NCBI GenBank assembly: GCA_902777605.1
Contig: CACYUI010000002.1
Span: 1 to 33,336, forward strand
Length of the DNA stretch: 33,336 nucleotides
Reading direction: 5' to 3'
DNA from: an uncultured bacterium
Lineage (GTDB): Bacteria; Cyanobacteriota; Vampirovibrionia; Gastranaerophilales; Gastranaerophilaceae
Below are positions 1,369-29,795 of the stretch, piece after piece. Every line of letters begins with the position of its first letter. Positions within the stretch are counted from its first letter, which is position 1. A program made the position numbers and the translations under genes. The notes below the pieces were generated by a model. The model searched no databases and was not told where the DNA came from. It worked only from the letters and a program-made list of their open reading frames with translations.

Positions 1369-2081
1369 GTTTCTCTATTCCTCTGTTTTAACCATTCTTC
1401 TTTCGGCAGGTCTGAAACAATTTGTCCGTCTTTAAATTTTATAATGCGTTTTGTATACTCTGCTATATCGGGCTCGTGTGTTACAAGAACAACAGTTTTA
1501 CCGTATTTTGCATTCAAATTTACAAAAAATTCCATCACATCAATACTTGTTTTTGTATCTAAATTACCTGTAGGTTCATCAGCAAGGATTAGTGGTGCAT
1601 CATTTACAATAGCTCTCGCTATTGCAACTCTTTGCTGCTGACCTCCTGACATTTGGGATGGCATATTGTTTTCTTTGTTTTCCAAGCCTACTACTTTCAA
1701 TGCTTCTCTTGCCCTTTTCAATCTTTCTTCGTGTGATAATCCCTTATAAATCATCGGCATACAAACATTATCTAAGGCCGAGGTTCTTGATATAAGGTTA
1801 AACCCTTGAAAAACAAATCCTATTTTTTGATTTCTTATATCAGAAAGCTGATTTGATGTTAGTGAAAAAACATCGACACCATCGAGATAATACTCGCCGC
1901 TTGTCGGCTTATCCAGTGTTCCTAGCATATTCATGCAAGTAGATTTACCAGAGCCGGAAGTTCCCATAATTGCTACAAATTCACCTTCATTTATGGTAAA
2001 CGAAACATCATTGAGGGCGTAAAATTCCTCGTCCCCCATTTTATACATTTTTTTTGCATGTCTTACATCGATTAATGTCAT
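1365..2081 (-). CDS. MacB/LolD-family ABC transporter ATPase
   Basis: A 238-residue cytoplasmic nucleotide-binding subunit that would power the adjacent MacB-like permease. Visible motifs are Walker A GTSGSGKST (40-48), Q-loop Gln92, ABC signature MSGGQQQR (144-151), Walker B LILADE (164-169) with a following D-loop (GNLD), and switch His202. The length is that of a stand-alone LolD/MacB ATPase domain. It lies 15 bases downstream of the adaptor gene and its end overlaps the permease start by four bases. The leader has an AGG-type ribosome site about 15 bases before ATG, which is weak, so coupling to the upstream gene is plausible. Confidence 0.95.
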   Translation of the reverse strand: MTLIDVRHAKKMYKMGDEEFYALNDVSFTINEGEFVAIMGTSGSGKSTCMNMLGTLDKPTSGEYYLDGVDVFSLTSNQLSDIRNQKIGFVFQGFNLISRTSALDNVCMPMIYKGLSHEERLKRAREALKVVGLENKENNMPSQMSGGQQQRVAIARAIVNDAPLILADEPTGNLDTKTSIDVMEFFVNLNAKYGKTVVLVTHEPDIAEYTKRIIKFKDGQIVSDLPKEEWLKQRNRET

Positions 2082-2096
2082 TTTTATTATTTACCT

Positions 2097-3248: not shown

Positions 3249-3261
3249 TTTTTATTCCTTC

Positions 3262-4875: not shown

Positions 4876-5055
4876 TACAAAGATATTGTACTTCAAAAAA
4901 ACTATAAAAAGCAAAATATTTAGCGGATTATAGCCGTTTTTTGTAACAATTTATTAATTAATATATTTAAAAGTGTAAAATATACAAATTTTTTGTTTTT
5001 TATAGTAATATATAAATTGTTAAAATTTAATTGACGTAAATTGCGTTGGTAGAAT

Positions 5056-11773: not shown

Positions 11774-11848
11774 ACTAGCCTCTATTCTTATTTTTATCTT
11801 TCTAATTATACAATAAATATATTTATGATAATATATTTTAGGATTAGG

Positions 11849-12919
11849 ATGAACAGGATTATGACAGTTAAAAAAGTTATCGGTATACCAAGAGCAATTT
11901 CATATTATGGGAACTATCCTTTTTATTATGGGTATTTTAATGCGCTTAATATAGAAATTATTTTATCTGATAAAACTACAACAGATATTATAAATAAAGG
12001 TGTCGAGAAGGTAGTGTCCGATACATGTTTGCCTATAAAAGTCTATGTTGGTCATGTTCTTAATCTTTTAGAAAAAGGTTGTGATACTATTTTTGTTCCT
12101 TCTTTACAATCATCAGCATTTAAAATTAATAATTGCAGCAAGATTAGAGGGTTGCCAGAAATAATTAGAAATGTTATTAATAAGTCTTTCATAATGATAG
12201 AACCTACCATTGATATAACAGAAGGTATTTCTTTTAAAGATTTTTGTTACGATATTGCTAATGAATTTGAAATTTATGATGAGAATGTTATCAACAATGC
12301 TATAAAAAAGGGCTGGGAAGTTTATAATAACTTTAATAAGATGACTAACTCAGGTGTTAATTATGAAATAGCTCTTAAAAATGCGATAGATGGAAATATT
12401 ATTCAAAAATCAATTGAAGTTGTAAAGCCTTTATCTGTAGTTATTATGGCACATGGATATAACCTTTTTGATGAACGCATATCAATGAGATTAATAAAAA
12501 AACTTGATAAAATGGGCGTTAAGTCTTACACTGCTTTAGATGTTAAAAAAGAAGATGCTTTAAATTCTATAAGAGAGATTGGCGAAATCCAATATTGGGC
12601 GAATGAATTGGATTTAACAGGTACGGCAGCTTATTATATGCTAAATAATAAAGTTGATGGAATTATTGCTCTATCAGCATTTGGTTGTGGTCCTGATTCT
12701 TTGATGGTAGATGAAATTCAATATCATGCAAAAGAAAAAGGTATGCCAATGATTCATCTCACTATCGATGAGCACACAGGAGAAGCCGGTTTTGTAACAC
12801 GAATAGAAGCTTTTGTTGATATGTTAATGCGTAAAAAGCGTAAAGCTTTAGAAAAAAATAATATAGTTGAAATTCCGCAAAAAACTGTTAAGCTTGATAG
12901 AACTCTTACAACTGTTTAG
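11849..12919 (+). CDS. DUF2229/COG3580-like dehydratase-type Fe-S protein (HgdB/BcrB superfamily)
   Basis: About 356 residues from the ATG at 11849, which has AGGA five bases upstream; ATG 11861 is also possible and an earlier ATG at 11825 is poorly placed. It resembles the non-catalytic partner module of 2-hydroxyacyl-CoA dehydratase/benzoyl-CoA reductase systems. Motifs are IGIPRAISYY near the N-terminus, Cys60 in DTCLPIKVYVGH, Cys96 in NNCSK, Cys280 in GCGPDSLM and the closing block DEHTGEAGFVTRIEAF. The three cysteines are the likely ligands of a [4Fe-4S] cluster. It lacks the ASKHA ATPase activator domain usually fused or adjacent. It is first in the eight-gene operon and related to the gene at 14026. 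The substrate is unknown; a lipid is suggested by context. Confidence 0.82.
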   Translation: MNRIMTVKKVIGIPRAISYYGNYPFYYGYFNALNIEIILSDKTTTDIINKGVEKVVSDTCLPIKVYVGHVLNLLEKGCDTIFVPSLQSSAFKINNCSKIRGLPEIIRNVINKSFIMIEPTIDITEGISFKDFCYDIANEFEIYDENVINNAIKKGWEVYNNFNKMTNSGVNYEIALKNAIDGNIIQKSIEVVKPLSVVIMAHGYNLFDERISMRLIKKLDKMGVKSYTALDVKKEDALNSIREIGEIQYWANELDLTGTAAYYMLNNKVDGIIALSAFGCGPDSLMVDEIQYHAKEKGMPMIHLTIDEHTGEAGFVTRIEAFVDMLMRKKRKALEKNNIVEIPQKTVKLDRTLTTV

Positions 12920-12958
12920 CTAATTTGTATTAAAATATTCTCTATGTAAAATATACTT

Positions 12959-14020
12959 ATGAATCGTTTTTATACATATAAAGGGGCAATACATATTCAC
13001 ACCAATCTCTCTGACGGTACCGGTGACATATATGCAATCTCGAATGCTGCAAAAAAGGTTGGTTTGGATTTTATTATAATTACTGATCATAATCATTATG
13101 ACATTGATGAAGGGATAATTAATGGTGTATATGTAATCAAGGCTCAAGAAATTTCACCAATGCAGTGCAACCATTATTTAGCGTTGGATGTAAATGAAGT
13201 TATTCCGCCAAATGATGATGCAAATGTATATGTAAATAAAGTAAGAGAGTCTGGAGGGATTGGATTTGCAGCACACCCGGACGAAGGTTTTATAATTGAC
13301 AAAAGTGGTAATGCTACACCAAGAAAGAATTCGCATCATTGTATTCCTTGGACAGATAAAAATATTAAACCTGATGGCGTTGAAATATGGAATTGGTTTT
13401 CTAATTGGGCAGATAATCTAGATGATTCAAACATTTTTAAATTAGCTTATGCATATTTATTTAAAAATTCAATAGTAACATCTCCTTCAAGGTTAACTTT
13501 AAATTGGTGGGATGAATTAAACAAAGAATCTGATAAGATAATTCCGGCTATTGGCGGAGTTGACGCTCATGCACTTAAAATAAAAAAATACATATTTCCT
13601 GTAACAGTTTTTCCTTATGAAACTTGTTTTAATACAATAACAAATGTTATTAATTTACCCAATAAACTAACTGAAAACTTTAAAGAAGCTAAAGGACAAA
13701 TATTAAATGCAATTAGGTTTGGTGCAAATGTTATTTTAAATCAGAATATAGTTTCAGATATTCCGAAAATTTATATTAAAAACAAAAATGACATATTCTA
13801 TTGTGGTTCAGATATTATTATTGATGATGGTACAAATTTATATATCGAAGCTAAAAAAACTTTTGAAATTTCTTTATTATATAATGGTCGTGTAATTGAT
13901 AAAGCTATTTCAAATAACTATTTGTATCAAATTAATGATTGTGGCAAATATCGTGTTGAATTATCATATAAAGGGAAGGGATACTTGTATACAAATCCTT
14001 TTAATATTAAAAAAACATAA
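12959..14020 (+). CDS. PHP-domain metallohydrolase (CehA/McbA-like)
   Basis: A 353-residue protein with a polymerase-and-histidinol-phosphatase fold. Likely metal ligands are His12 and His14 (HIHTNLSDG, with Asp19), Asp43/His44 (TDHNHYD), Glu64, His106 (AAHPDE) and Asp202/His204 (GGVDAH), a complete set. The last 65 or so residues look like a beta-rich accessory domain, as in CehA/McbA-type relatives. PHP enzymes of this kind hydrolyse phosphoesters or other esters, so removal of a phosphate or head group from a pathway intermediate is a reasonable guess. It has no signal peptide, so it should be cytoplasmic. It lies between the two dehydratase-like genes (39 and 5 bases away), which ties it to their pathway. 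No clear ribosome site precedes the ATG. Confidence 0.87.
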   Translation: MNRFYTYKGAIHIHTNLSDGTGDIYAISNAAKKVGLDFIIITDHNHYDIDEGIINGVYVIKAQEISPMQCNHYLALDVNEVIPPNDDANVYVNKVRESGGIGFAAHPDEGFIIDKSGNATPRKNSHHCIPWTDKNIKPDGVEIWNWFSNWADNLDDSNIFKLAYAYLFKNSIVTSPSRLTLNWWDELNKESDKIIPAIGGVDAHALKIKKYIFPVTVFPYETCFNTITNVINLPNKLTENFKEAKGQILNAIRFGANVILNQNIVSDIPKIYIKNKNDIFYCGSDIIIDDGTNLYIEAKKTFEISLLYNGRVIDKAISNNYLYQINDCGKYRVELSYKGKGYLYTNPFNIKKT

Positions 14021-14025
14021 AAACA

Positions 14026-15207
14026 ATGAGTAAACTGGCAGAAGAACAAATAAAAAGATTTTCAACTATGGATGACAATATTCCCGCTAAGGAAAGAGTT
14101 ATTGCTTGGCCGCGAATGGGAAGAATTGACATACCATTAAAAGCGTTATTATTAAATTTGGGAGCAAAAATAGTTATTCCACCTGCCAACAGTAATCAAG
14201 CACTTGAAATAGGTGTGAAAAACAGTATTGAAGGCATATGCTTACCGTATAAACTTAATTTAGCAAATTACATTCAAGCATTGGATCGTGGTGCGAATAC
14301 ATTGATGATGTTTCAGGCACCCGGTTCTTGCAGATTAGGTAATTATACCAAAATGGCTCAAAAAACTCTGAAAACAATGGGATATGAGTTTGATATGGTA
14401 ATTTTTGATATGTACCGTAATAAAATGATACAAACTTTACATGCATTTTGGCATGTTACAAGATGTCTTAATCCCTGGATGTATTTTAAAGCATTCAGTT
14501 TAGGATTTACTAAATTTTTTGCAATAGATTGTGCTGAGAGAATGCTTTTGTATTACAGACCAAGAGAGATAAATAAAGGTGATGCTGAAAAATGTTATGA
14601 AAAGTGGCTAAAAATTATTGACGATTGTAATTCTGTAATATTATCCAAGTTTCTTTGCTATAGAATTAAAAAAGATTTTAAAAAAATTAAAATTGATTCC
14701 AAAAAACAAGTTCCTTTGGTTTATCTTTTAGGTGAGTTTTTTGTGTTGCTCGATCCTTACACCAATCAGCATATTGAAAAAGTTTTAGGAGATATGGGGG
14801 TAGAGGTAAGACGCCAGATAATGTTTAGTGGTTGGTTGGAGCATGTTTTAAAACCATCTTTATTTTATAAAAAAGAATCACATAGGGAACGCGCCGTAAA
14901 AAATGCTTCTAGATACATGAAAAGAGCTATTGGTGGAGAATGTATTGAAACAATTGGTGATACTGTATATGCCGCAAAAAATGGCGTAGACGGTGTGATT
15001 CATTTAATGCCATTCTCTTGTATGCCAGAAATCGTTTCACAGAACATATTATCAAAAGTTTCTCGCGAAGAAAATATACCTGTGTTATCATTAGTATTGG
15101 ATGAACAAACAGGAAAAGCCGGATATATTACAAGAATTGAAGCTTTTATAGATTTGGTTAAAAGAAAGAAAATGTATAAGGAGAAAATAAAAAATGACAG
15201 ATACTAA
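14026..15207 (+). CDS. COG3581-like dehydratase-type Fe-S protein (HgdB/BcrB superfamily)
   Basis: A 393-residue second dehydratase-like protein, distantly paralogous to the gene at 11849. Matching features are Cys72 in GICLPYKLNLANY, Cys102 in GSCRLGNY, Cys332 in PFSCMPEIVSQNIL and the end block DEQTGKAGYITRIEAF. The three cysteines at equivalent positions suggest a [4Fe-4S] cluster. Such subunits work in pairs and receive an electron from an ATP-driven activase; none is encoded in this window. In anaerobic plasmalogen synthase (PlsA) the activase, DUF2229 and this module are, as I recall, one chain; here the last two are separate. It starts five bases after the PHP gene and overlaps the next gene by 14 bases. 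Confidence 0.82.
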   Translation: MSKLAEEQIKRFSTMDDNIPAKERVIAWPRMGRIDIPLKALLLNLGAKIVIPPANSNQALEIGVKNSIEGICLPYKLNLANYIQALDRGANTLMMFQAPGSCRLGNYTKMAQKTLKTMGYEFDMVIFDMYRNKMIQTLHAFWHVTRCLNPWMYFKAFSLGFTKFFAIDCAERMLLYYRPREINKGDAEKCYEKWLKIIDDCNSVILSKFLCYRIKKDFKKIKIDSKKQVPLVYLLGEFFVLLDPYTNQHIEKVLGDMGVEVRRQIMFSGWLEHVLKPSLFYKKESHRERAVKNASRYMKRAIGGECIETIGDTVYAAKNGVDGVIHLMPFSCMPEIVSQNILSKVSREENIPVLSLVLDEQTGKAGYITRIEAFIDLVKRKKMYKEKIKNDRY

Positions 15208-16252
15208 GTCAAGAAACAGAATGACATTTGAACGTCTTAAATATTACAGACACCTTGGAGGAGGGGCTATAACTTGCATTAAAAGTAGATTATCAAAAAC
15301 GCCTAAACCTTTGTGTTTTTCTTTAATGGTAACTAATAAGTGTAACTGTAATTGTGATTTTTGTTTTTGGAAGCATAAAAATGATCACGAAGACATGCCA
15401 TTAGAAGAAATTCAACGACTTATAAAAGAAGCGGGTGAAATAGGGTATTTAGATAGCATTTTATGGGGTGGTGAGCCTTTATTGAGACAGGATTTTACGG
15501 AAATTTGTAAAGCATCACATGATGCCGGTTTATATACTAAAATTGCTACCAATGGGTGGTTTTTACAAGAAAACCCGGGATTTGGTCAGTACACCGATTT
15601 AATGTTTGTATCATTAGATGCAATAGGTAAAGCTCATGATGATATCAGACATTTGCCCGGTATATGTGACAGAGTAATGAATGGTGTTGAATATCATAAA
15701 ATACATTCGCCAAAGATGAGAATTTATGTATGTTGTACCGTTTCCGCTCAAACTGATTTTGATCAAATAAAAGAGGTTGCGCAATATTGCAAAGATGCTG
15801 ATATATTACTATATTTTACTGTAAATAAATCAAATCAAGCTCTTGAAGAAGCACAGAATGTAAAAGATACAGAGCTGGAAAGTGATCAGTTAAAAGAGAT
15901 ATTTATCAAGATAAAAGATCTTAAAAAGCAAGGCTATCCTATAAGAAATTCTGATTACTTTATGGATTACATTATTGATAAGAAAAATTATTATGAATGC
16001 CATTGGCCCAGAATAGCAACAGTAATATATTCTGACGGTAATATGCTACAGTGTTATGACAGGCAACCGTTCATAAATGTACGCGGTAGATCTCTCAAGG
16101 ATGTCATAAAAGACCCCGTATTTATTGAATCTGTAAATAAATGTAAAGATTGTAAGCTTGCCTGTGTTGGTAACTATGCGCTTGATGCATCAGGACTTTG
16201 GAAATTAGAGTGGCCTGCAATAAAATCTTTAATGCAGATTGCTATTACATAA
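15194..16252 (+). CDS. Radical SAM enzyme with SPASM/twitch-like C-terminal cluster site
   Basis: A 352-residue radical SAM protein. The SAM-cluster motif CxxxCxxC is Cys50, Cys54 and Cys57 in KCNCNCDFCFW, with the GGEP SAM-binding motif at 92-95. The C-terminal part has Cys269, Cys287, Cys317, Cys320 and Cys324 around YSDGNMLQC and CKDCKLAC, as in SPASM/twitch enzymes that bind a second Fe-S cluster. A basic stretch before the core (residues 12-40) could touch the membrane. The start has a strong AAGGAG ten bases upstream and overlaps the dehydratase-like gene by 14 bases. Possible roles are lipid carbon-carbon or ether chemistry or peptide modification; no precursor peptide gene is visible nearby, which argues mildly against the latter. 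Confidence 0.88.
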   Translation: MTDTKSRNRMTFERLKYYRHLGGGAITCIKSRLSKTPKPLCFSLMVTNKCNCNCDFCFWKHKNDHEDMPLEEIQRLIKEAGEIGYLDSILWGGEPLLRQDFTEICKASHDAGLYTKIATNGWFLQENPGFGQYTDLMFVSLDAIGKAHDDIRHLPGICDRVMNGVEYHKIHSPKMRIYVCCTVSAQTDFDQIKEVAQYCKDADILLYFTVNKSNQALEEAQNVKDTELESDQLKEIFIKIKDLKKQGYPIRNSDYFMDYIIDKKNYYECHWPRIATVIYSDGNMLQCYDRQPFINVRGRSLKDVIKDPVFIESVNKCKDCKLACVGNYALDASGLWKLEWPAIKSLMQIAIT

Positions 16253-16302
16253 TCAGCATGCAATAATTATTATTGGTAAATAATCACTGGAAGGATTCAA
16301 AA

Positions 16303-18684
16303 ATGTTAAAAAAAATATTTACTTTATTTATATTAATTGCATTTTGCTCAACATCAACAGTGTTTGCTGCTGATGCGCAAGCGGTTAACTTGGTTAAGAG
16401 TGATGTATTTGATAATAATTATCAAAGTTTAAATGATGCAAACTCTGTAAAACAGTCTTTGAGTACTATAGAAAAAATGTATAATGGAAAAGAAAATGCT
16501 GTGTCAGGACATGTATTGAAACAAATGGGGTATGATCAGTTTACAACTCCTGCCGGTGCAGTATCTTCTACCGGTAAATATGACAGTTCTTATAAGTTAA
16601 GTGTAGGCGAAAAAGTAAATATTCTTTCATATGGTGATTCTGTTGATGTAATATCTATGTCTGGTGCAAACCTTGTTCAACCAAGTACTGTAACCGAAAT
16701 TGGTTCAAACGGAGCTATATTTGTTCAAGGTGTTGGAATGGTTAAAGCTGATGGGAGAACAATCGGTCAAGTTGAAAATGAATTAAATGCAATGGCCAGA
16801 AAAAAATATACGAATATGAGTATTAAATTACAAGTTGCATCAGGAAGTGGATTCTCTGTATTTGTATATGGTGAAGTTAATCGTCCCGGAAAAGTATACT
16901 TAAGCAGTAATTCATCTTTATTAGATGCGTTAAGTACAGCCGGTGGTGTTAAGAAAACAGGTACTTTAAGAAATATTAAATACAACAATAAACCTATTGA
17001 TTTATATAAAACATTGTTCTTGGGTGATGATAACGACATTATAGTGAAAGCAAATGATAAAATATTTGTTGGAAAGATAAACGGTACAGCTGCAATTAAA
17101 AACGGTGTAACAAGACCGGGTATATACGAATTTAAACAAGGTGAATCTTTAAAAGACCTCGTTAAGTATGCAGGTGATTTTTTGGTAACAACAGGTCATG
17201 AAGAAGTTACAATGGTAGGCTATGATAAGAAATTAAAGCAAAGAATTGCAAACAACTTAGCTTGGAATGATGCACAATTAAATAAACTTGCCGATGGTAA
17301 TACATATGAGTTCAAAGAGTTATATAATGGTGTTGAAAACTTAGTTACTATTCAAGGTAATATAAAACATCCAGCTGTTTATGCATATAAACCGAATATG
17401 AGATTATCAGATATTCTAAAGTCAGAAGATGAATTGTTAGAAGAAACTTTTATTTATCAAGCAGTAATAAGAAGAGTTTCTGGCAAAAACAATGAAGTTG
17501 AAACAATACCGGTATTTTTAAAAGAATTTTTTAACGGTATGAATGACCCGATATTACAGCCTCGAGATGTAATAACTATTTATAAAAGTACAAATTCTGA
17601 ATTTGTAGATATATATGGTTGTATTAATATTCCTAAACACATCCCTTATACGCCCGATATGACATTAAAAGATGTTTTGTCTGATGTTCAGTTTATGGAA
17701 TCAGAAGTTAAAAATAATACAAATGTTGAGTTTGATACTGTAAAAAAAGGAGAAGATGTAAAACTTACTGTATCAACAGAAAATGCTAATAAATTAATTC
17801 CTACGGAAAATGTAGCAGTAGAAATTACCAATAAAGCAGGTGATACACAAATATATTATATGTATGATATTTTGATTAATTCTGACAGAATAAAATCAAT
17901 AAAAATTAATGCTAATGACAGAATATTTTTTAGAACATTAAGACCTAATGAAGTTACAAAAAGCATTAAAATTTCAGGTTTTGTAAAAAAACCGGGAGTG
18001 TATTCATTTATTAAAGGTCAAAATCTGGTTGATATTATACAAATGGCCGGCGGTCTTGATGATGATGCAGAATTACGAGGTATTGTGTTTAGACGTGCAA
18101 ATCTAAAAGCTAAACAAGTTAATATTGCAAAAAAGAATAATGATAGAGATATAAAACTATTAGAGGGTAGAATTGCAGCTGGCTATAAACAAACCACATC
18201 TGATACAAATACTAAACTTGAGATGATAGAGCAGCTAAGAAATGAACAAAAAGAGTTTGCTAAAAAATATGATGGTCAAATATCTTTGAATATTAAAAGT
18301 AATAATCTTAGTAAAATAAGTAATATAGACAATGTTTTATTACAAGATGGTGATGATATTTATATTCCAAGAGTATCAAATTATGTAGCTGTTCTTGGTG
18401 AAGTATATAATGAGCAATCATTCATGTACAATCATGGCTCTAAAGTAAAACGGTATATAAAACAGGTTGGCGGATATACACCAAATGCTAACAAATTTAG
18501 ATTATATAAAGTTGGTGTAAATGGCAGAGCACAAAAAGTCCATATGTGGACAAAAGTAGCAGCAGGTGACACAATTGTTGTACCTAGAAGAATTGCCGGA
18601 AATGATTGGATTACGCCAATATGCCAAACACTACAGGGATTAGCATCAATATTCATCATGGCATTTGCTATAAACAAATGGTAG
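16303..18684 (+). CDS. SLBB-repeat polysaccharide-export-like envelope protein
   Basis: About 793 residues. The start is the ATG at 16303: AAGGA lies seven bases upstream and the product begins with a signal peptide (MLKKIFTLFILIAFC..., cleavage near VFA-A). A Poly_export-type domain (about 80-180) is followed by roughly six SLBB beta-grasp copies beginning near residues 186 (YGEVNRPGKV), 264 (NGVTRPGIY), 349, 436, 555 (SGFVKKPGVY) and 696. A hydrophobic segment ends the protein (ASIFIMAFAINKW). This is the layout of Wza/KpsD-like outer-membrane export proteins. The lysine-rich insertion at about 600-660 may be helical. No glycosyltransferase, Wzc or polymerase gene is in the window. Its place among lipid-type genes suggests it exports their product or a related glycolipid. 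Confidence 0.88.
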   Translation: MLKKIFTLFILIAFCSTSTVFAADAQAVNLVKSDVFDNNYQSLNDANSVKQSLSTIEKMYNGKENAVSGHVLKQMGYDQFTTPAGAVSSTGKYDSSYKLSVGEKVNILSYGDSVDVISMSGANLVQPSTVTEIGSNGAIFVQGVGMVKADGRTIGQVENELNAMARKKYTNMSIKLQVASGSGFSVFVYGEVNRPGKVYLSSNSSLLDALSTAGGVKKTGTLRNIKYNNKPIDLYKTLFLGDDNDIIVKANDKIFVGKINGTAAIKNGVTRPGIYEFKQGESLKDLVKYAGDFLVTTGHEEVTMVGYDKKLKQRIANNLAWNDAQLNKLADGNTYEFKELYNGVENLVTIQGNIKHPAVYAYKPNMRLSDILKSEDELLEETFIYQAVIRRVSGKNNEVETIPVFLKEFFNGMNDPILQPRDVITIYKSTNSEFVDIYGCINIPKHIPYTPDMTLKDVLSDVQFMESEVKNNTNVEFDTVKKGEDVKLTVSTENANKLIPTENVAVEITNKAGDTQIYYMYDILINSDRIKSIKINANDRIFFRTLRPNEVTKSIKISGFVKKPGVYSFIKGQNLVDIIQMAGGLDDDAELRGIVFRRANLKAKQVNIAKKNNDRDIKLLEGRIAAGYKQTTSDTNTKLEMIEQLRNEQKEFAKKYDGQISLNIKSNNLSKISNIDNVLLQDGDDIYIPRVSNYVAVLGEVYNEQSFMYNHGSKVKRYIKQVGGYTPNANKFRLYKVGVNGRAQKVHMWTKVAAGDTIVVPRRIAGNDWITPICQTLQGLASIFIMAFAINKW

Positions 18685-18715
18685 TAGCTTTTGTGTAATG
18701 TAAGGATATTATTTA

Positions 18716-19372
18716 ATGTTAAATATAATAAAAAAACAACAAAGAAATTATAATAGAAGATACCCAGAAGATTATGGTTTCATAAGAACAGCTTGGATAA
18801 CACTGTTTCTGTGGTTTGTTGTTTGGCCGGCTGCTTTTTTATGGTATACGGTAAAAATTATTGGTTGGAAAAATGTTGATAGAAGTAAGAGGTATATTTA
18901 TACATCAAATCATCAGTCTTATATTGATGCACCTCTAATATCTGTAATTGCTAATGCTCCAGTTGCTTATATGGCAAAAAAAGAGTTATATATACATAAA
19001 AATCCTGTAATTAGATTTTTAGTAGTAAGTTTAGGGGCATATTCAGTTGATAGAGATAACCCAGAAAAAGCTACATTAAAAACGATTCTTGATATAGTTA
19101 AACATACTAAGTGGAATTTAGGAATGTTTCCTCAAGGTAAGCAAATTTTAGAAGGTGACAAATTTAAAGATATAAAACCTGGATTTGTTTCAATTGCAAA
19201 AATGGCGAAAATGGATATTGTGCCGATTGCTATTTGTAACTTTACGGGATATTCTTGGATACCATTTAGAAAACATATAACATTAAAAGTAGGAAAACCT
19301 ATTTCATATGAGCTTCCGGAAGAGGAAATTATAAAACAATGGGTAGAATATATGGAAACAAATGTAGAATAA
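18716..19372 (+). CDS. PlsC-type lysophospholipid acyltransferase
   Basis: A 218-residue acyltransferase of the 1-acyl-sn-glycerol-3-phosphate family. The catalytic NHQSYID motif gives His66 and Asp71 (H-x4-D). The glycerol-phosphate-binding motif is FPQG (138-141), with Gln in place of the usual Glu of FPEG. IVPIAI (168-173) is the fourth family block. A membrane-embedded hydrophobic stretch (about 27-49) anchors it. It would add an acyl chain to a lysophosphatidate-like acceptor in the inner membrane. AAGGA lies nine bases before the ATG. It sits 31 bases after the SLBB gene and 25 before the second radical SAM gene. Being inside the operon, it may serve a special lipid rather than bulk phosphatidate synthesis. 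Confidence 0.92.
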   Translation: MLNIIKKQQRNYNRRYPEDYGFIRTAWITLFLWFVVWPAAFLWYTVKIIGWKNVDRSKRYIYTSNHQSYIDAPLISVIANAPVAYMAKKELYIHKNPVIRFLVVSLGAYSVDRDNPEKATLKTILDIVKHTKWNLGMFPQGKQILEGDKFKDIKPGFVSIAKMAKMDIVPIAICNFTGYSWIPFRKHITLKVGKPISYELPEEEIIKQWVEYMETNVE

Positions 19373-19397
19373 ACAGTAAATAGATTGGAGAGATATA

Positions 19398-20918
19398 ATG
19401 AGAGTTGAAAAACAAGCCACTGTCTGGCAAGCAAATTCAATGGGAGCTTTTGATAGAGTTAAGCTTGGAATTAATAATTTTATAATTGATCAAACAATTA
19501 ATTATTTAGGTAGAAATTTTTCAAAACAAAAATTGGTTAATTTGGCTAAAATATTTGAAAAAATTTCGGGTTCAAAAGGTGGAATAAATCACGCTAAGAG
19601 GATGCAATGGTTGTTTGAATCTGAACATGCTCATCTTTTTTGGTGGAAAAGGATTTTAACAGAATTACATCCAAATTGCAGAAATAAGTGGATAAAAAAC
19701 TTTTTTGTTAACGGTTATTACGGTGATAATTTAAGAAAACGAACTGAATTTAATGAGAAAAATGGCTTTTTCCCTCCTACAGTTTTGCTTGCAAGTATCA
19801 CTAAAAACTGCAACTTTCATTGTAAAGGATGTTGGGCACATGAATACGATGTTCGTGAAGATTTAACAAAAGATAAATGGAGAGAAATTTTTAAAGAAGC
19901 TCGTGATGTTATGGGTATTCATATATTTCCTATTGTTGGTGGTGAGCCATTCTGTCGTAAAGAGTTTTTAGAACTTTGTGAGGAATTTAATGATTGTACA
20001 TTTATAACTTTTACAAATGGCTCTTTAATTACCGAAAAGACTGTAAAAGAATTACAAAGATTGGGCAATGTTCAGCCAATGTTTTCTTTAGGTGGGCTTA
20101 AGGAAAATACAGATGCAATTCGTGGTGAAGGTTGTTTTGATATGGTTATGCAAAAAATGGATATGCTGAAAAAAGCAGGTATATTCTTTGGTGCATCCAT
20201 TACTGCAACAAGCCAAAATTGCGACGAAGTGACATCTGATGAATTTATGAAAATGTTATCTGATAAAGGATGCTTGTGGAGTTGGTTTTTCCATTATGTA
20301 CCTGTTGGTGATAGTCCTGATATTTCTATGACACCTAATGCTAATCAAAGAAGACAAATTCTGAAAGCAGTTTATAATGCCAGAAATACTTTACCGATGA
20401 TGACAGTTGACTTTTGGGGTGACGGCCCCGAAATGATGGGCTGTATTGCAGGCGGCAGACAATATATTCATGTTAATCCGAAGGGCGATGTTGAACCATG
20501 CACTTTTGTTCATTTAGCAACTCATAATGTTAATGACTGTACTTTAACAGAAGCTTTAGCTTCTCCGTTTATGCGGGCTATTAGAGATGGTATTCCTTAT
20601 GAAGATGGTAATATGCTAAGACCTTGTATGATTGTTGACAGACCGGAAATGCTTAGAAAATATTATGAAGAATTCAAACCTTATGAAACTCATAAGGGTG
20701 CGGCTGATTATTTAACAAATCCTCAAATTAAATCTGAAATAGACAAATACTCATCTGAAGTTAAAGAGATTCTTGATAAAGATTGGAGAGAAAATCTATG
20801 GATGACAATATTCCCATTAGAAGGTGAATATTATATTGATAGAGATAAATTCTGTTCTACTGAAAAACCATCTCAATCTTGTAGTTGTGGATGTGAAACT
20901 TGCGGGTGTTCAAAATAA
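19398..20918 (+). CDS. Radical SAM enzyme with cysteine-rich C-terminal tail
   Basis: A 506-residue radical SAM protein. The cluster motif is Cys138, Cys142, Cys145 in NCNFHCKGCWAHEYD and the GGEP motif is at 181-184. Further cysteines (349, 368, 381, 410) around CIAGGRQY and VEPC suggest an auxiliary cluster. The last 21 residues hold six cysteines (486, 495, 497, 499, 502, 504; SCSCGCETCGCSK), an unusual metal-binding-like tail. The N-terminal 130 residues are helical and rich in tryptophan and basic residues (HLFWWKRI, NKWIKNFF), compatible with peripheral membrane binding. GGAG lies seven bases before the ATG. Next to PlsC and a lipid kinase, a membrane lipid is a likely substrate, but I cannot assign the reaction. 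Confidence 0.88.
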   Translation: MRVEKQATVWQANSMGAFDRVKLGINNFIIDQTINYLGRNFSKQKLVNLAKIFEKISGSKGGINHAKRMQWLFESEHAHLFWWKRILTELHPNCRNKWIKNFFVNGYYGDNLRKRTEFNEKNGFFPPTVLLASITKNCNFHCKGCWAHEYDVREDLTKDKWREIFKEARDVMGIHIFPIVGGEPFCRKEFLELCEEFNDCTFITFTNGSLITEKTVKELQRLGNVQPMFSLGGLKENTDAIRGEGCFDMVMQKMDMLKKAGIFFGASITATSQNCDEVTSDEFMKMLSDKGCLWSWFFHYVPVGDSPDISMTPNANQRRQILKAVYNARNTLPMMTVDFWGDGPEMMGCIAGGRQYIHVNPKGDVEPCTFVHLATHNVNDCTLTEALASPFMRAIRDGIPYEDGNMLRPCMIVDRPEMLRKYYEEFKPYETHKGAADYLTNPQIKSEIDKYSSEVKEILDKDWRENLWMTIFPLEGEYYIDRDKFCSTEKPSQSCSCGCETCGCSK

Positions 20919-20942
20919 TCAAAAAAATAATATAATAAATAT

Positions 20943-21803
20943 ATGGAAAATGTACTAATAGTTACTAACTTTAGCGCTGGCAGAAGGTTGGCAGTAAAAT
21001 ATAAAAAATTGGTATTAGATTTTGTATTAAAGCAAGCAAAAAATTTTAAATTTGTTGATATAGACGAATTTAAAGTAGTTGATGTGTCGGATTTTGATAC
21101 AATATTAGTTATGGGCGGAGATGGAACTGTAAATAAGGTTTTACCTTGTCTTGTCAATACTAATAAAGTGTTGGGAATCATTCCTTGCGGGACAGCAAAC
21201 TTGCTTGCGGCAAAACTTAATATCCCTACAAATGTTGATAAATCTTTGAATATTATAAATGCAAACAATATCAAGAAAATCGATGTTTTAAAAGTTAATG
21301 AAAGATTCTGTATATTAAGATGCGGCTTTGGATATGACTCCGATATAATATGTAAAACCCCACAATCTCTAAAAAATAAGTTTGGATATTTAGCTTATTT
21401 TATAGCTGGTATTATTTTTGCTCTACGACTTAAATATAAAAAATATTTTTTAACTATTGATAATGAAGAGCATACTATAGATGCTACTAATATTATTGTA
21501 GGTAATGCATCTAATATGTATAAAAATCTTGTATCTGTAGGGAAAAATTCAAAACTTGATGATGGCTTAATGGATATTTTTATACTAAAAACTTCTAATC
21601 CTATAATATTTTTTATAGAATTTTTAATGATTATTTTCAATATAAAATTTAATGACAAATATGTTGAATATATTCAAGCTAAAACTGTTCAACTAAAAAC
21701 TGAGTGGCAAAATTGTCATATTGATGGTGAAAAAAATAATTTTTCTGAAGATATGAATATCAGTATTTATAAAAATTGCTTGAATGTTTTTGCTAATAAA
21801 TAA
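20943..21803 (+). CDS. Diacylglycerol/sphingosine kinase-family lipid kinase (DagK/YegS-like)
   Basis: A 286-residue lipid kinase of the DAGK catalytic family. GGDGT (58-62, in VMGGDGTVNKV) binds the nucleotide phosphate, and IIPCGTANLLA (79-89) is the second conserved block. The C-terminal beta-domain contains a DDGLMDIFI-type element. It would phosphorylate diacylglycerol or a related neutral lipid at the inner membrane, making a phosphatidate-like product that the adjacent PlsC-type enzyme could precede or recycle. It is the last gene of the operon, 24 bases after the radical SAM gene. No ribosome site is obvious, so translation may depend on the upstream gene. No clear terminator is visible in the short AT-rich gap before the convergent small gene. 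Confidence 0.92.
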   Translation: MENVLIVTNFSAGRRLAVKYKKLVLDFVLKQAKNFKFVDIDEFKVVDVSDFDTILVMGGDGTVNKVLPCLVNTNKVLGIIPCGTANLLAAKLNIPTNVDKSLNIINANNIKKIDVLKVNERFCILRCGFGYDSDIICKTPQSLKNKFGYLAYFIAGIIFALRLKYKKYFLTIDNEEHTIDATNIIVGNASNMYKNLVSVGKNSKLDDGLMDIFILKTSNPIIFFIEFLMIIFNIKFNDKYVEYIQAKTVQLKTEWQNCHIDGEKNNFSEDMNISIYKNCLNVFANK

Positions 21804-22165: not shown

Positions 22166-23614
22166 TTATGTTTTTTTATTTTTATTAATTTCTAAATTAA
22201 CTTCACCAGCAGCAATATTTCTTCCAATTGATTTTTCCAAATTTGCACGAGCAGAGTTATATTCATACATAGTTTGATAATATGTAAGTTGTGAATTTTC
22301 ATATTGCACTTGTGCATCTTTTAATTCAACAGGATTCCCGACTCCAACTTTATATCTTCCGGAAGATAATTCATAATTTTCTTTAGATTGTTTCATTCCT
22401 AAGTATGCAACAGGTATCTTGCTTTTCTTTTCTGCTAATGAATAATATGCATTTTGTACTTCTAAATAAATGTCATTTTTAGTATTTATTGCCTCTGATT
22501 GCTGTTTTGAATATAACGAGCGAGCTTCTCTAATCTGGTGTTTTATTAACATTCCGTTTATTGTTGGAAAATTTATGTAACCACCAAGTGAATAACCGTA
22601 GTTTGAATCAGGATGTCGACCACCGACTTCAAATTGTCCCTCAACTGATAGCCAAGGAAACCAACTTTTTTTTACTAATTTTACATTCTGTTTAGCTTGT
22701 TCAACTTTAACTTCTGCAAGTTTAAATTCTGGCCTAGATTTTTGTGCTATTTTTATAGCTTTATTTAAACATATTTCACATGAGTTAAATTGCAGTTTAT
22801 CTGATAATTCATACTTTGTACAATAAGGAATCCCAATAGCATTATTAAGCTTTGCCATTGCTATATTCACTGCATGTTCTGCCTGGATTAAAGTTAATTT
22901 TGCATTGCTTAAATTTACTTCTGCAATTGTTACATCGACTTTGGGTTTTGTTCCTGTTTCATAAAAAGCTTTTGCTTGTTCATAAAATTGTTGGTATTCT
23001 CGTACATTTTCTTCTGCAACTTTTTTGGCTTCGATTGAATACTGCAGATTGTAATATGCATCTTTTACTATATATATAACATCATTTATAGTTCCTGTTA
23101 AAATTATTTTATATCCTTGATTATCCAGTTTTCTTATTGTAGCTTGATTCTGCGTAACACCGAAGTCATATAACATTTGTGAGCCGCTAATTTGTCCTAA
23201 AATCCAATAATTATAAATAAGGTTTTCTCTTAATGCATCTGATAATTGAAGCTGTCTTATACGGCTATATCCTGATTGCCAGCTAAATTGCGGGAAGAAA
23301 GCTGACCATGTTTGTTTAATCCTTGCATCGGATGCGAATACATCCTGCATTGCAGACTGTATTCTTGGATTATTACCTAGGGCTAGTCTAATGCAGTCAT
23401 CTAAATTAACGGAAACTGTGTTTTCAATTCCTGTTTGAATTGTTGCAGTAGAACCATCTTCAGATAAGTTAATTCTTGGCTCAACATCATCACTGTTCGG
23501 AAATTCTTCTTTTTTTATCTTATTTCCTAAATTATTTTCTTTATGTAATATTGCAGCATAAACTGAGCTATTAATCATAGCGAATGTAAGTATCAATGCT
23601 ATAAATTTTTTCAT
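22166..23614 (-). CDS. TolC-like outer-membrane efflux channel (second copy)
   Basis: A 482-residue outer-membrane factor with an N-terminal signal peptide ([20 protein letters not shown]). Two OEP repeats are visible: one begins at [17 protein letters not shown], the second around [16 protein letters not shown], each followed by long alanine/glutamine-rich helices. [20 protein letters not shown] near the end is a typical repeat closing helix. It would be the exit duct of the RND pump. Its start overlaps the RND stop by four bases (ATGA). It is distinct from the TolC-like gene at 3262-4875 and lacks that protein's central insertion, so each exporter appears to have its own channel. Confidence 0.93.
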
Positions 23615-26600
23615 TTTTGTTTTTTAATCCTAATATAAATCATAACTAGCCCTAGGATTATTATTGCTGATAATATAATTTTGACAATCAGCGGCAAGGC
23701 TAATATTTTTGATATTACAAAAGGAATTAGCATAAATAGAATTGAGTATATTAATATTAATGCCAACAAAAGCAGAATAAATTCTTTAGCAAGCTCTTTT
23801 CTTTTTTCGGGAACATTTTTGACTGTGTTTAATAGTACAAAAAATGCAGGAACAAGAATACTACCGATAATAGCCACGGCAATCATACCACCAAATACTG
23901 AAACACCAATAGAGTGCCTACTTCCTGCACCGGCACCTTTCGCTATTACCAGAGGAATTAAACCCAGAATGAATGCAATATTTGTCATCATAACGGCTCT
24001 AAACCTTAGTTTAGCAGCTTGCATTGCTGCCTCAAGATAGCTCATACCATCTTTTTCCATAGCATCTTTAGCAAATTCTACAATTAAAATTGCCTGCTTA
24101 GTTGATAGTCCAAGTAGCATTACAAGACCAACTTGGGCATATATATCAAGTGAAAGCCCCCAAATATATTGCAAGAACAATGCGCCTGATATAGCAATCG
24201 GAGATATTAACATTACTGAAATTGGTAATGTCCAACTTTCATATAATGCAACCAAGAATAAATATACAAAAGTTAAAGCCATTAATAATATTGGTCCAAG
24301 TTGTCCTGATGATTGTTTTTCTTGATAAGATGTTCCTGACCAAGCATAATCCATATCATTAGGTAATATTTTTGCAGACATTTCTTCCATAGCTTTCATA
24401 CCGTTACCAGTACTTACACCTGGCGCAACGGCAGCATTTATTGTAATTGATTGATATAAGTTGAACCTTGTTAATTCAAAAGGAGCTATAATATGTTCTG
24501 TTGTTACAACAGATGTTAATGGTACCATTTTTCCATAAACATTTTTTACATATATTTTATTTAAATCATCTAAAGTATCTCTAAATGGTGAATCTGCTTG
24601 CATGTATACCCTATATACACGCCCGTATTTATTGAAGTCGTTTATATATGTAGCACCAAATTGTGCTGCTAATGTTGAATATATGTCAGCAATCGGTACC
24701 CCTTGTGCAAGTGCTTTATCTTCTTGAATTCTGACAACAACCTGCGGCAGTGATGCTGTAAATGCTGTATATACACTTGAAAATGCTGGATTAACTCTTG
24801 CTTCTTTCATAAAAGCTTGTGCTTGTTTAAACAATTCTTCAGGCGATCTATCACCTTTATCAAGAAGTTGATATTCTATACCGTTAAACATACCTAACCC
24901 TGTAATTGCAGGTGGTTGAGATACGAATGTTATTGTCTCGGTATACTTGGAAGAAATGGCATTCGCTTGTGCCATAATACTATTTACCGACAATTTTTTA
25001 CTTTTTCTATCGTGCCAAGGGTCAAGTTTAACAATAACAAGAGCAGTGTTTTCACCGTTAAAACCGTTAATAGATAGAGTAGATTTTACTCCTGGAATTG
25101 TCAATATTTCTTTGCACATATTATTAACAACATTTGTTGATCTAGTAAGTGTTGCTCCGTCTTGAAGTTGTACCTGCATGAACATTGCGCCACGATCTTC
25201 TTCAGGTAAAAAACCTGATGGAATAACCTTAAACATTATTAATATAAAAAGGACTATTCCAAAAATCGTTCTAAGTGTTTTATGTGGTTGAGAAACAAAG
25301 TAGCTTACAATTCCTAAATATTTATCTCTCACACTGTTAAACCAATTTTCAAATTTTTGTATAAATTCAAAATCTGTTTTTTCATTACCTGATTTTAAAA
25401 TTATAGAACATAATGCAGGAGATAAGGTTAATGCAACAATAGTTGATAGTCCGACTGATGTTGCAATACAAACTGCAAATTGTCTGTACATTTGCCCAGT
25501 GATACCTCCTAAAAATGAAACTGGAACAAATACTGCCATTAATACTAAAGATGTTGCTACAACGGCTCCAAACACTTCCTGCATAGATATATTTGTAGCA
25601 TCTTTTGGACTCATACCTTCTTGTATATGTCTTTGCGTATTTTCCAACACAACAATTGCATCATCTACAACTAAGCCTACAGCCAAAACAAGTCCAAACA
25701 ATATTAACAGATTTATTGAAAAACCTATACCAGCCATAAATATAAATACACCAATAAGAGAAACCGGAATTGCACAAAACGGAATAAATGCAGCTCTTGC
25801 CGTTCCTAAGAATAAATATGTAACGGCAGACACCAAAAGGATTGCTAATATAATAGCTTGAACAACTTCTTTTATAGATTCTCTTACAAATTCTGTAACA
25901 TCATATTGAACATGATATTCCATATCACTAGGGAATTTTTTGCTTAAAACTTCCATTTTTTTATTAAGTCTGTTAACAAGGTCAATTGTATTTGCATCAG
26001 GTAATTGTGTTACAGCAATGATAGCAGCTTCCTTTCCTTCAACAATTGATCTGTGTGAATAATTTTCCGCACCTAATTCGACTCTTGCCACATCTTTAAC
26101 TTTTACATTTGAGCCGTCAGGGTTAGATTTGATAATAATATTTTCGAATTCTTCAACAGTTTTAAGCCTGCCTTTAGTTTTCAGTGTAAACTTCATCATT
26201 TGTGGATTTTCCATTGGCTCAGTACCAATATTACCAGCCGGAGTTTGCACATTTTGTGATTGTATTGCATTACTTATGTCTGAAGTAGAAACACCTAAAC
26301 TTGCCATTTTATCCGGTTGCAGCCATATTCTCATTGAATAATCACCGGCGCCATATACGGCAACACCTGCACATCCTTTAGTACGAGCAAGTTCGTCTTT
26401 TAAATAAAGAGTTGCGTAATTCGCTAAATATAGTGCATCATATGTGCCATGAGGAGAACGCAAACCTAAGAATAAACATCCGCCTCCGCCTGTAGATTTC
26501 CGAACAGTTAAACCATATCGCCGAACTTCTTCCGGCAGTCTAGGAGTAACTAATTGTAGTAAGTTTTGTACATTTACTAAGTTCATATCAGGGTCTGAAC

Positions 26601-26889
26601 CAACTTCAAAATAAATAGTTAATTTATAAGAACCGTTACTTGACTCTGATGACATGTAAATCATATTTTCTACGCCGTTAAGCTGAAGCTCGATAGGTGC
26701 CGCAATAGTTGATGTGATAACATCAGCGTTAGCACCACTATATGTTGCATTCACAATTACCTGTGGTGGTGTAATTGAAGGATATTCTTCTAACGGTAAA
26801 GTTTTCAAACAAAGCCAACCCGCAATTATTATTGCTAATGATATTACAATTGCAAACTTAGGCCTTTTAACAAAAAAGTTTTCTTTCAT
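23611..26889 (-). CDS. RND efflux pump, HAE-1/AcrB type, with extra C-terminal membrane segments
   Basis: A 1092-residue proton-driven inner-membrane exporter. The N-terminus is typical (helix 1, then [14 protein letters not shown]). The proton-relay aspartates are Asp409 and Asp410 in [14 protein letters not shown], and the matching lysine is Lys931 in [11 protein letters not shown]. Two large periplasmic porter/docking regions lie between helices 1-2 and 7-8. The normal core ends near residue 1024. A further 68 residues contain about 50 mostly hydrophobic residues (1036-1086), probably two more helices, ending in a lysine-rich tail; AcrB-type pumps normally end with helix 12. It overlaps the adaptor stop by one base and the TolC start by four. 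The substrate is unknown. Confidence 0.96.
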
Positions 26890-28100
26890 TACTTGTTACC
26901 CCTAAAAAAGTTTTTTACCTTTGTAATGATTTTCGAAATTAAACCTTGTTTTGCCTTCGTTGTATTATCTTTTGCAACGGATTTTTCTACTATTCTAACA
27001 GCTGAGCCAGGAATAACTTTTTGCATGCCTGTTGTGATAATTCTGTCCCCTTTTTTTACACCTTCATAAACAATCCAATTCGTTCCAACTTGTCCCATTG
27101 TTTTTATGTAAGTAAGTTTTGGCAAATTGTTTTCATCAAGTAAGTATACATATAAACCTTCCTGGTTTTCCATTGTTGCTTCTTGTGGAACAATTGGTAG
27201 TTGGTCTTTTTTATTAGAAAATATTGTAATTCTTCCAAAGTCACCCTGTAATAAGGCATTTTCAGGATTTGGGAATGTTGCTCTTAGAGTTATTGTACCG
27301 GTAGTTTCATCAACTTTATTATCGTAAAAGTCTTGAACACCTTTGTATTTGTATTTTTGTCCTGAGCTGAATGTATATTCTACTTCTCGCTCTACATTAG
27401 CACCTCCGTCAATTCTTGTTAGTTCAGCATAATCTTTAGATTCTATAGGAAATGTTATATACATTGGCTCTGAACTGTTGATTGTTGTAAGCGGTCCGCT
27501 GCTCATTGATACATAGTTACCTACCGTAACAGAAATTATACCTACTCTGCCATTAACAGGGGCTTTTACTTTTGTATATGCATAGTTTCTTTTTGCATCT
27601 CTATAAATATTTTCCATGCTATTTACTTGTGCAGTATGAGCATCTCTTTGTGCCAAAATGTTATCATAATCAGCTCTTGCGACAAAATCATTGTCTACAA
27701 GCTCTTTATATCTTGCAAGTTGTTTGTTATAATACACTTGCTGTGCTTTAGCATTGTCTAAATCTGCTTTTGCTTTATGCGCAGCATAGTCATATTCTTG
27801 TGGCTCGATTTCAAATAATACTTGCCCTGCTTTTACATAGTCACCTTCTTTAAAATAGCTATGAGTAAGATAGCCGTTAATTCTCGCTAAAACTTCGACT
27901 CTATATTTTGCCATTACTCTGGCAGTTGCGCTATATTCTCTCCTTACATCTGCCGTATTAACAGTATCGACAGTAACCGCCGGTGCTGACATCGCTAATT
28001 TTTTCTTTAATGATGCTGCTTTATCTATACTCGATATAAATAAGCGTCCTAAAATTAGTGCAGCTAAGACTACAACAATTACTATTATATTTTTTCTCAT
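26889..28100 (-). CDS. RND-type periplasmic adaptor (membrane fusion protein)
   Basis: A 403-residue AcrA-family adaptor, first gene of the RND operon. Residues about 3-23 form a membrane anchor with no clear lipobox. Recognisable parts are the first lipoyl half ([20 protein letters not shown]), an alpha-hairpin (about 105-170), the second half ([20 protein letters not shown]) and beta-barrel/membrane-proximal domains. The lysine-rich C-terminus (NFFRGNK) is likely flexible. GGAGAGAG lies directly before the ATG. No TetR- or MarR-type regulator is adjacent, so control is either constitutive or from elsewhere. Confidence 0.94.
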
Positions 28101-28205: not shown

Positions 28206-29795
28206 TTAATTAAATTTTTTTCTGATCACCAAATAACGATTAGGTTCATCTCCAACTGAGGCGCTATCAAGGTTGTATTGTTCTACAAGCTCATGTTGAA
28301 GCTTGCGAACATGTTGGTTTTGAGGAGCCAGTTCTATTTGCGGAGCTCCTTCCATTACTTTTTTTATTGCATTTTTTGCCTCATCAAGCGCAAGTTCTGT
28401 TTCATCTTTATACCCTTGAGTTGGCATAACATCTCCCGGTTGTATATCTAAAGCATCTTTTAATACTTTTTGAATTTGTGCCATAGAATTTGTTTTAACA
28501 TATAGTACTCTTACTCTATATTCTTTTGCACTATTAAGAATTTTTGCTCCGCCTTTTGCAAAGTTTTTATGTGCTATAACGATATCAGCATCTTCAACAT
28601 TTCTTGTAATTTCCACATTGAGATCAAGACGCTCTATAATTTTTTCTACAATAGTTCTAGATACAGCGTATAAATAAACCTTCTTTAGAGGTTTTACTTT
28701 TTCTACATACTCCTGTCTGGAGAACGAGAAATTCATACTATTATCTTTAGCTTCCTCCACTTTCTTATTTTCTTGTGCAATTTCTTCTTTCGGTTTTTGT
28801 ATGTCATCTGTTATTTTGGAGTTTACTTTTCTTATCTCAGGTCTTATTGGCCAACCTCTTAATATGTAATCAACAGCTTCAGAAGTGTTTTTATAAACTG
28901 CCAGAGTGTTTCTATCCATAATTTCTATAACAATATCAAAAGTAGGCTGTTTTTCCCTTTCTAATACTGTTTTTTGCGATGCTCTGCGTTTTGCTTCATC
29001 ATCACCCAATGTAACAGATTGAATCCCACCAACCAGATCAGATAGTGTTGGGTTTTTAATCAAACTCTCTAAGCAATTACCGTGTGCTGTAGCAATAAGC
29101 ATAACTCCGCGTTCTGCTATTGTTCTTGCTGCAGCAGCTTCCGCTTCTGTACCTATCTCATCGACTACAATTACCTCAGGAGTGTGGTTTTCAACTGCTT
29201 CAATCATAATATCTTTTTGTAGTTCAGGCTGAGCAACTTGCATTCTTCTTGCAGAGCCTACCGCAGGATGCGGTACATCTCCATCACCTGCAATTTCATT
29301 GGAAGTATCTACAATTACGACACGCTTGCCAAGCTCATCTGCTACAAGTCTTGAAATCTCACGCAGTTTAGTTGTTTTACCTACCCCGGGAGGACCTAAA
29401 AATAAAATACTTTTACCTTGTGTGCAAAAATCTTTTATACAAGCAATCGTACCAGTTACTACACGCCCAATACGACAGGTTAAACCTATAACTTTACCTT
29501 GCCGATTTCTAATTGCGCTAATTCTATGTAATGTGCCAGGAATACCGGAACGATTATCATGTGTAAAATCTTGAATCTTTGATATTACAAATTCGATATC
29601 TTCATCTTCAATATAAGCCTCTCCAAGTTTTTCTATTTTGCCTCCGGAATGTCTAACTTCTGCTATTCTTCCAATATCTAAAACTATTTCAATAACATCA
29701 CCCAATCCATCTTCATTAAGATAATGGGTAACCTTTGGGGGCATTATAGCAAGTAGCCTCTCGAGGTCATTTTGAAATTCCATACTGCTCATCAT
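28206..29795 (-). CDS. AAA ATPase with C-terminal R3H domain (Ycf45/SpoIIIAA-like)
   Basis: A 529-residue protein. The first 120 residues resemble the SpoIIIAA-type N-terminal domain. The P-loop ATPase core has Walker A GPPGVGKTT (134-142) and Walker B VIVVDE (208-213). A charged linker (about 330-365, rich in Lys/Glu) precedes a middle domain. The last 38 residues form an R3H single-stranded nucleic-acid-binding domain with Arg497 and His501 (R-x3-H). This architecture is known as Ycf45 in cyanobacteria and plastids, which supports the proposed affiliation; its exact role is not established. The promoter is at 29875-29903, with a leader of about 70 bases. The start carries two adjacent ATGs and a weak ribosome site, so the first residue may be off by one. 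Confidence 0.92.
   Translation of the reverse strand: MMSSMEFQNDLERLLAIMPPKVTHYLNEDGLGDVIEIVLDIGRIAEVRHSGGKIEKLGEAYIEDEDIEFVISKIQDFTHDNRSGIPGTLHRISAIRNRQGKVIGLTCRIGRVVTGTIACIKDFCTQGKSILFLGPPGVGKTTKLREISRLVADELGKRVVIVDTSNEIAGDGDVPHPAVGSARRMQVAQPELQKDIMIEAVENHTPEVIVVDEIGTEAEAAAARTIAERGVMLIATAHGNCLESLIKNPTLSDLVGGIQSVTLGDDEAKRRASQKTVLEREKQPTFDIVIEIMDRNTLAVYKNTSEAVDYILRGWPIRPEIRKVNSKITDDIQKPKEEIAQENKKVEEAKDNSMNFSFSRQEYVEKVKPLKKVYLYAVSRTIVEKIIERLDLNVEITRNVEDADIVIAHKNFAKGGAKILNSAKEYRVRVLYVKTNSMAQIQKVLKDALDIQPGDVMPTQGYKDETELALDEAKNAIKKVMEGAPQIELAPQNQHVRKLQHELVEQYNLDSASVGDEPNRYLVIRKKFN

Follow-up and report, generated by a model that had tools for sequence, protein, structure and literature searches.

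The stretch of DNA analyzed here (the window) comprises 33,336 nucleotides of contig CACYUI010000002.1 (assembly GCA_902777605.1) and contains, at positions 11825-21803, a run of eight genes, denoted A to H, all on the plus strand, which were delineated by combining the listing of open reading frames (ORFs) with a domain search. The source genome (G000; 1.99 Mb, 97.8% complete) is that of a Candidatus Gastranaerophilales gut bacterium, a member of the Melainabacteria. The genes of the locus encode the following proteins, where BCR/HAD stands for benzoyl-CoA reductase/2-hydroxyacyl-CoA dehydratase and OPX for outer-membrane polysaccharide export:

Gene A, 11825..12919, plus strand: COG3580-type (DUF2229 with an HGD-D C-terminus) BCR/HAD-family reductase subunit (PF09989, 157 bits; PF06050, 34 bits), with the likely start at 11849 or 11861.
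Gene B, 12959..14020, plus strand: metallohydrolase of the PHP superfamily, CehA/McbA-like below the cut-off (NF038032, E 1e-15), with a C-terminal beta-sandwich; predicted phosphoesterase.
Gene C, 14026..15207, plus strand: COG3581-type BCR/HAD-family reductase subunit (PF06050, 33 bits; DUF2229, 28 bits).
Gene D, 15194..16252, plus strand: radical SAM protein with SPASM/twitch-like C-terminal cysteines (PF04055, 46 bits), PTO1314/HpnH-like below the cut-offs.
Gene E, 16273..18684, plus strand: OPX protein (Wza/KpsD-like) with several SLBB domains, likely starting at the ATG at 16303.
Gene F, 18716..19372, plus strand: PlsC-type acyltransferase (PF01553, 77 bits), lineage-specific.
Gene G, 19398..20918, plus strand: radical SAM/SPASM protein (PF04055, 63 bits) with an N-terminal region of ~110 residues and a Cys-rich tail.
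Gene H, 20943..21803, plus strand: DagK/YegS-type lipid kinase (PF00781, 71 bits; YegS_C, 41 bits).

The gaps between successive genes, from A to H, are 39, 5, -14, 20 (50 if E begins at 16303), 31, 25 and 24 nucleotides, which agrees with a preliminary description of this DNA, made from the letters alone, that reported eight co-directional genes separated by -14 to +50 bases. The domain assignments given there also hold, with the catalytic residues intact, and the start proposed for gene A, 11849, is an internal ATG of this ORF and a plausible one. On the opposite strand, the operon is preceded by a gene for a VTT-domain protein and followed by an RND efflux set, and scans of the locus for promoters and terminators yielded nothing better than shuffled sequences.

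Gene C is 72-93% identical to its counterparts in loci of related genomes, many of them Candidatus Gastranaerophilales. Among 52 such loci, the order A-B-C-D-E recurs, and the complete A-E set is present in 32 of the 39 loci with enough flanking sequence, on a single strand in 31 of these; L037 becomes the 33rd if its gene B, missed by the ORF caller and seen by tblastn, is counted. Four loci (L050, L055, L069 and L084) contain A-B-C without D-E, and in two others (L044 and L049), D and E are inverted together, indicating that these two genes move as a pair. The conservation of the A-E arrangement is more than chance would produce. Of 38 long loci, 25 contain G, 25 contain H, which in 21 of these is encoded on the opposite strand, 24 contain a PAP2 gene, and just 5 contain F. 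Because F is rare and H is mostly encoded on the other strand, the exact eight-gene operon is a local variant of a larger conserved locus. Farther afield, three other families include four genomes (L092-L095) with a G - C - A-type - C-type cluster, which links G to the reductase subunits. In a genome of a further family (G027), C-D-E are kept together, with neither A nor B upstream; on contig C3 of this genome (L112:4750-5886, L096:1-17654), they are found beside WcaJ, G, an H homologue, PAP2, a UDP-sugar dehydrogenase-like gene and a glycosyltransferase, and this region is a fuller version of the export locus delineated below.

The co-occurrence of these genes was examined in 76 genomes of the host's family, with E scored as Poly_export; the comparison covered B, C, D, E, G and H. 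Genes C, D, E and G are present in an identical set of 23 of the 76 genomes and in none of the remaining 53 (Fisher P 6e-20, uncorrected for kinship), and B and H, each searched separately, give exactly the same 23. The number of DUF2229 matches per genome, 3-5 in carriers and 2 in most non-carriers, fits the operonic A following the carriers as well. Carriers and non-carriers are intermixed within seven genera, so that the B/C/D/E/G/H set changes as a unit many times, and the presence of both kinds within one genus amounts to a natural experiment.

The identity of gene E points to what this unit is for. The E protein matches PF02563 (Poly_export) at 31.5 bits, with the cut-off at 28, and SLBB at 125 bits, and inspection of the sequence by eye reveals hydrophobic N- and C-terminal segments, the former a putative signal peptide. 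The earlier proposal that the SLBB protein exports a product outward is supported. No carrier genome, that of the window included, encodes a Poly_export protein other than E. Wzz, in turn, is encoded in 21 of the 23 carriers and in none of the 53 non-carriers. Beside the core genes in relatives, there are WcaJ-type sugar transferases (15 loci), Wzz (13 loci), PAP2 (24 loci), epimerases and glycosyltransferases. In the window genome, two WcaJ-type genes are located away from the operon, and a single, weak Wzy_C match was detected in one relative. The computation thus shows joint inheritance of six genes (B, C, D, E, G and H), among them the only Wza/KpsD-like exporter of the cell (E), together with Wzz.

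Given the identical 23/76 sets, the status of E as the sole exporter, the confinement of Wzz to carriers, and the WcaJ, epimerase, Wzz and PAP2 neighbors, we favor, with a probability of roughly 60%, the interpretation of the locus as an all-or-none surface-polysaccharide module equipped with anaerobic tailoring enzymes in gut Gastranaerophilales. That the module is linked to export is very likely. The polymer would be built by a WcaJ/Wzz/Wzy-type pathway and leave the cell through E. As a whole, the preliminary interpretation is partly supported: the existence of a conserved, apparently undescribed anaerobic envelope locus combining BCR/HAD-type proteins with radical SAM enzymes is borne out, and a literature search returned no described system matching it, whereas the proposed pathway for making a glycerolipid or glycolipid is weakened, the linkage found being to polysaccharide export.

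Several observations weigh against the surface-polysaccharide interpretation. The operon of the window genome has no glycosyltransferase, Wzz or Wzy gene next to it, and the Wzz frame (L155:10081-10389, that is, ~78081-78389 of contig C3 of the same genome) spans 102 amino acids compared with ~455 in relatives; this short frame may be decayed or reflect an assembly fault. The gene sets were compared without a species tree. Finally, the long E protein is encoded away from the cluster of G with reductase subunits in all four distant-family genomes examined (L092-L095); an export role is therefore not obligatory for the reductase/radical SAM set.

A and C, with their HGD-D and DUF2229 domains and conserved Fe-S cysteines, belong to the BCR/HAD superfamily and would jointly form a two-subunit, ATP-driven Fe-S reductase. 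Residue conservation was read from alignments of up to ~50 homologues per gene; the cysteines C68, C104 and C288 of A are invariant (46 sequences), as are C72, C102, C147 and C332 in the alignment of C; all three in A and three or more in C count as Fe-S cysteines. Over their full length, A and C are 33-34% identical to the stand-alone COG3580 and COG3581 proteins of Monoglobus (E 7e-56 and 4e-66), as against 21-28% identity to the PlsA/PlsR domains (E ~1e-20 to 1e-10). In phylogenetic trees including a small reference set of stand-alone COG3580/COG3581 proteins, A and its paralogue A' group beside the Monoglobus protein, with PlsA Red1 apart at a Shimodaira-Hasegawa-like approximate likelihood ratio (SH-aLRT) support of 99 (quick method, with long branches flagged), and C and its paralogue C' are separated from PlsR at 100/100. 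The paralogues A' and C' lie singly elsewhere in the window genome. The plasmalogen synthase PlsA/PlsR and the glycerol ester reductase Ger contain one or two fused activase domains (PMC12838417, PMC13274423, PMC8788747); no BcrAD_BadFG activase domain, fused or separate, was found in the operon. Considering the lower identity, the separate branches and the lack of an activase in the operon, we rejected the membership of A and C in the PlsA/PlsR or Ger groups that the preliminary description had suggested, with the caveat that approximately unbiased (AU) tests left two alternative groupings unrejected (p 0.14 and 0.12). The grouping of the dehydratase-like and radical SAM proteins away from lipid families, which that description had named as telling against it, is thus largely what is seen for A and C; D and G could be assigned to no family of known function. 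Fused PlsA/Ger-type proteins of ~1480 amino acids, 53-54% identical to that of Haliovirga, are encoded in two Cyanobacteriota outside the Gastranaerophilales (G123 and G129; L154:1151-5614, L153:3522-7961), which are possible makers of plasmalogen or ether lipids.

In the window genome, the only full-length activase match lies on contig C15, with two weaker PF01869 matches in other places. This activase is present as a single copy in all 76 genomes of the family and is 52% identical to the activase of the Monoglobus COG3580-COG3581-activase operon (L100). A sequence filed as viral (IMGVR_UViG_3300028835_002564; L159:7893-9974) encodes, among phage-like structural genes, a 693-amino-acid protein in which a BcrAD_BadFG activase is joined to a COG3581-type domain. 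By analogy, the Monoglobus operon and the phage fusion support, short of proof, the pairing of A/C-type subunits with a shared activase, which would reduce A and C from outside the operon.

Both radical SAM proteins retain their cluster-binding residues, and D falls between the recognized families. In D, the CxxxCxxC motif (C50/C54/C57) and C269, C287, C317, C320 and C324 are invariant; the best hidden Markov model (HMM) family, TIGR03961, scores 111 bits against a cut-off of 306. The AlphaFold-type model of D is weak (mean predicted local distance difference test score, pLDDT, 62), and its best fold match is the sugar-acid decarboxylase BlsE, followed by peptide- and cofactor-modifying radical SAM enzymes, so that sugar chemistry for D can be suggested with low confidence. 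In G, C138/C142/C145 and the SPASM cysteines are invariant, and the protein scores below every family cut-off, the nearest being of the NirJ2/AhbD/mycofactocin type. Membership of D and G in the HpnH family was rejected (51 and 36 bits, with 225 required), and so was that of D in the Tes family, given that the Tes structure 7tol is matched over ~85 residues only (E 7e-8).

Relatives of G are also scattered outside such loci. Lone radical SAM/SPASM proteins ~34% identical to G are encoded on IncF-type plasmids (L105:2254-3633, E. albertii; L106:9896-11197, K. pneumoniae), and a blastn-level search of 5,426 E. coli genomes returned nothing matching the E. albertii gene. G homologues are also present in "Bacteriophage sp." GenBank records (L146-L150: MT836060, MT836382, MT836688, MT836374 and MT835501), among genes for the shikimate pathway, argininosuccinate synthase and tRNA synthetases, ordinary bacterial genes that make these records look like misfiled bacterial contigs. 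As lone genes in unrelated surroundings, the relatives in these gut contigs and Enterobacteriaceae plasmids offered no functional clue. The plasmid search detected no relatives of D or B, and the scan of viral contigs yielded one remote relative of D.

In B, all PHP metal ligands (H12, H14, D19, H44, E64, H106, D202 and H204) are invariant, and the AlphaFold model (pLDDT 94) best matches the folds of 3e38 and 2anu, themselves predicted phosphoesterases; the complete metal site and the fold are those of a PHP phosphoesterase. F contains the NHx4D motif (H66, D71). Together, H, PAP2 and F suggest lipid handling, and the locus may act on a lipid anchor.

How the enzymes would act within the proposed surface-polysaccharide module is more tentative, and we put the following scheme somewhat short of even odds. 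A and C with the activase, the SPASM-type radical SAM proteins D and G, and the predicted phosphoesterase B would act in one pathway that tailors the glycan, for example, by oxygen-independent deoxygenation, epimerization or decarboxylation of a sugar, or else the lipid carrier or anchor; handling or recycling of this carrier or anchor would fall to H, to the PAP2 protein in relatives, and to F in the present lineage. A bolder version, which we consider unlikely, is that the ATP-driven BCR/HAD-type reductase and the two radical SAM enzymes rebuild the carrier or anchor (or a sugar) of the exported polysaccharide without oxygen. Such anaerobic envelope chemistry, for which we know of no precedent, would join ether-lipid-type reductases to capsule export.

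The most direct competitor is a pathway for ether or membrane-spanning lipids, in which A and C reduce glycerol ester bonds in the manner of PlsA/PlsR or Ger, D and G join or modify the tails, and F and H supply the glycerolipid. The distant homology of A and C to the Red1 and Red2 domains, the PlsC and DagK genes in the operon, PAP2 in relatives, the weak HpnH-like and Tes-like matches of D, and the lack of formal rejection in the AU tests are all compatible with this view. Nevertheless, it appears improbable: A and C are closer to the stand-alone set and branch away from PlsA/PlsR, the operon lacks an activase domain, no fused PlsA is among the Gastranaerophilales matches listed, the presence of the locus follows polysaccharide export, A' and C' are retained in operon-free genomes, and F is found in so few of the long loci. 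It is also conceivable, if unlikely, that A and C do not act on the final substrate and instead form an ATP-driven, low-potential electron donor, akin to the double-cubane proteins, feeding G and/or D. The only solved structures reached by the A and C profiles below E 0.01 are indeed double-cubane cluster proteins (7yyl and 6eno), and the clusters of the four distant-family genomes combine G with C-, A- and C-type genes and lack E; however, A and C keep the three-Cys pattern of PlsA/PlsR, which makes direct substrate reduction equally possible, and we are aware of no precedent for such a donor to radical SAM enzymes.

Alternatively, an exporter locus and unrelated anaerobic enzymes could travel together in a genomic island without sharing a pathway. 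The patchy distribution, and the occurrence of D, of E with Wzz, and of G+C+A+C apart from one another in distant families, would be expected under this scenario, but the identical genome sets for six genes and the retention of the core order in 32 of 39 loci despite divergence, with B down to ~45% identity, render it highly improbable.

Other features of the window include efflux systems on both sides of the operon, namely, a MacB-type ABC set with HlyD and an outer-membrane factor at 142-4914 and an AcrB-type RND set at 22166-28100. A SpoIIIAA-like ATPase with an R3H domain is encoded at 28206-29795; we take it to be of the kind known as Ycf45 in cyanobacteria.

Compared with characterized systems, A and C share with PlsA/PlsR and Ger the Red1 and Red2 homology and the three-Cys pattern of these modules, and ATP-dependent activase chemistry is expected; they differ in the lack of a fused activase and in branching apart. 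The Monoglobus operon consists of three neighboring genes, for the same two subunit types and a matching activase, and includes neither radical SAM nor export genes. Here, the pair forms part of an export locus, and the activase is encoded outside it; the literature search found no paper assigning a function to that stand-alone COG3580-COG3581-BcrAD_BadFG arrangement. The double-cubane cluster proteins are the best solved relatives of A and C by profile, but the match is confined to ~65 C-terminal residues. Similarly, the HMM families closest to D (HpnH/PTO1314) and to G (NirJ2/AhbD/mycofactocin-type SPASM) are approached at scores far under each cut-off.

With respect to export, the locus is similar to OPX/Wza/KpsD systems, for which several protein classes have been delineated, including class 2B with a median length of 824 amino acids (PMC9603273): E consists of ~800 residues with Poly_export and several SLBB domains, and Wzz, WcaJ and PAP2 are encoded nearby in relatives. 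What sets it apart from known OPX loci is the presence of two radical SAM enzymes and of reductase subunits of the BCR/HAD type. To our knowledge, no OPX locus with this combination has been described. PlsA-like proteins that stand alone and lack an activase domain occur widely, and what they do has been stated to be unclear (PMC13274423). The locus described here ties one such activase-less pair, through an all-or-none distribution across 76 genomes, to polysaccharide export. This is the first concrete context for this group of which we are aware.

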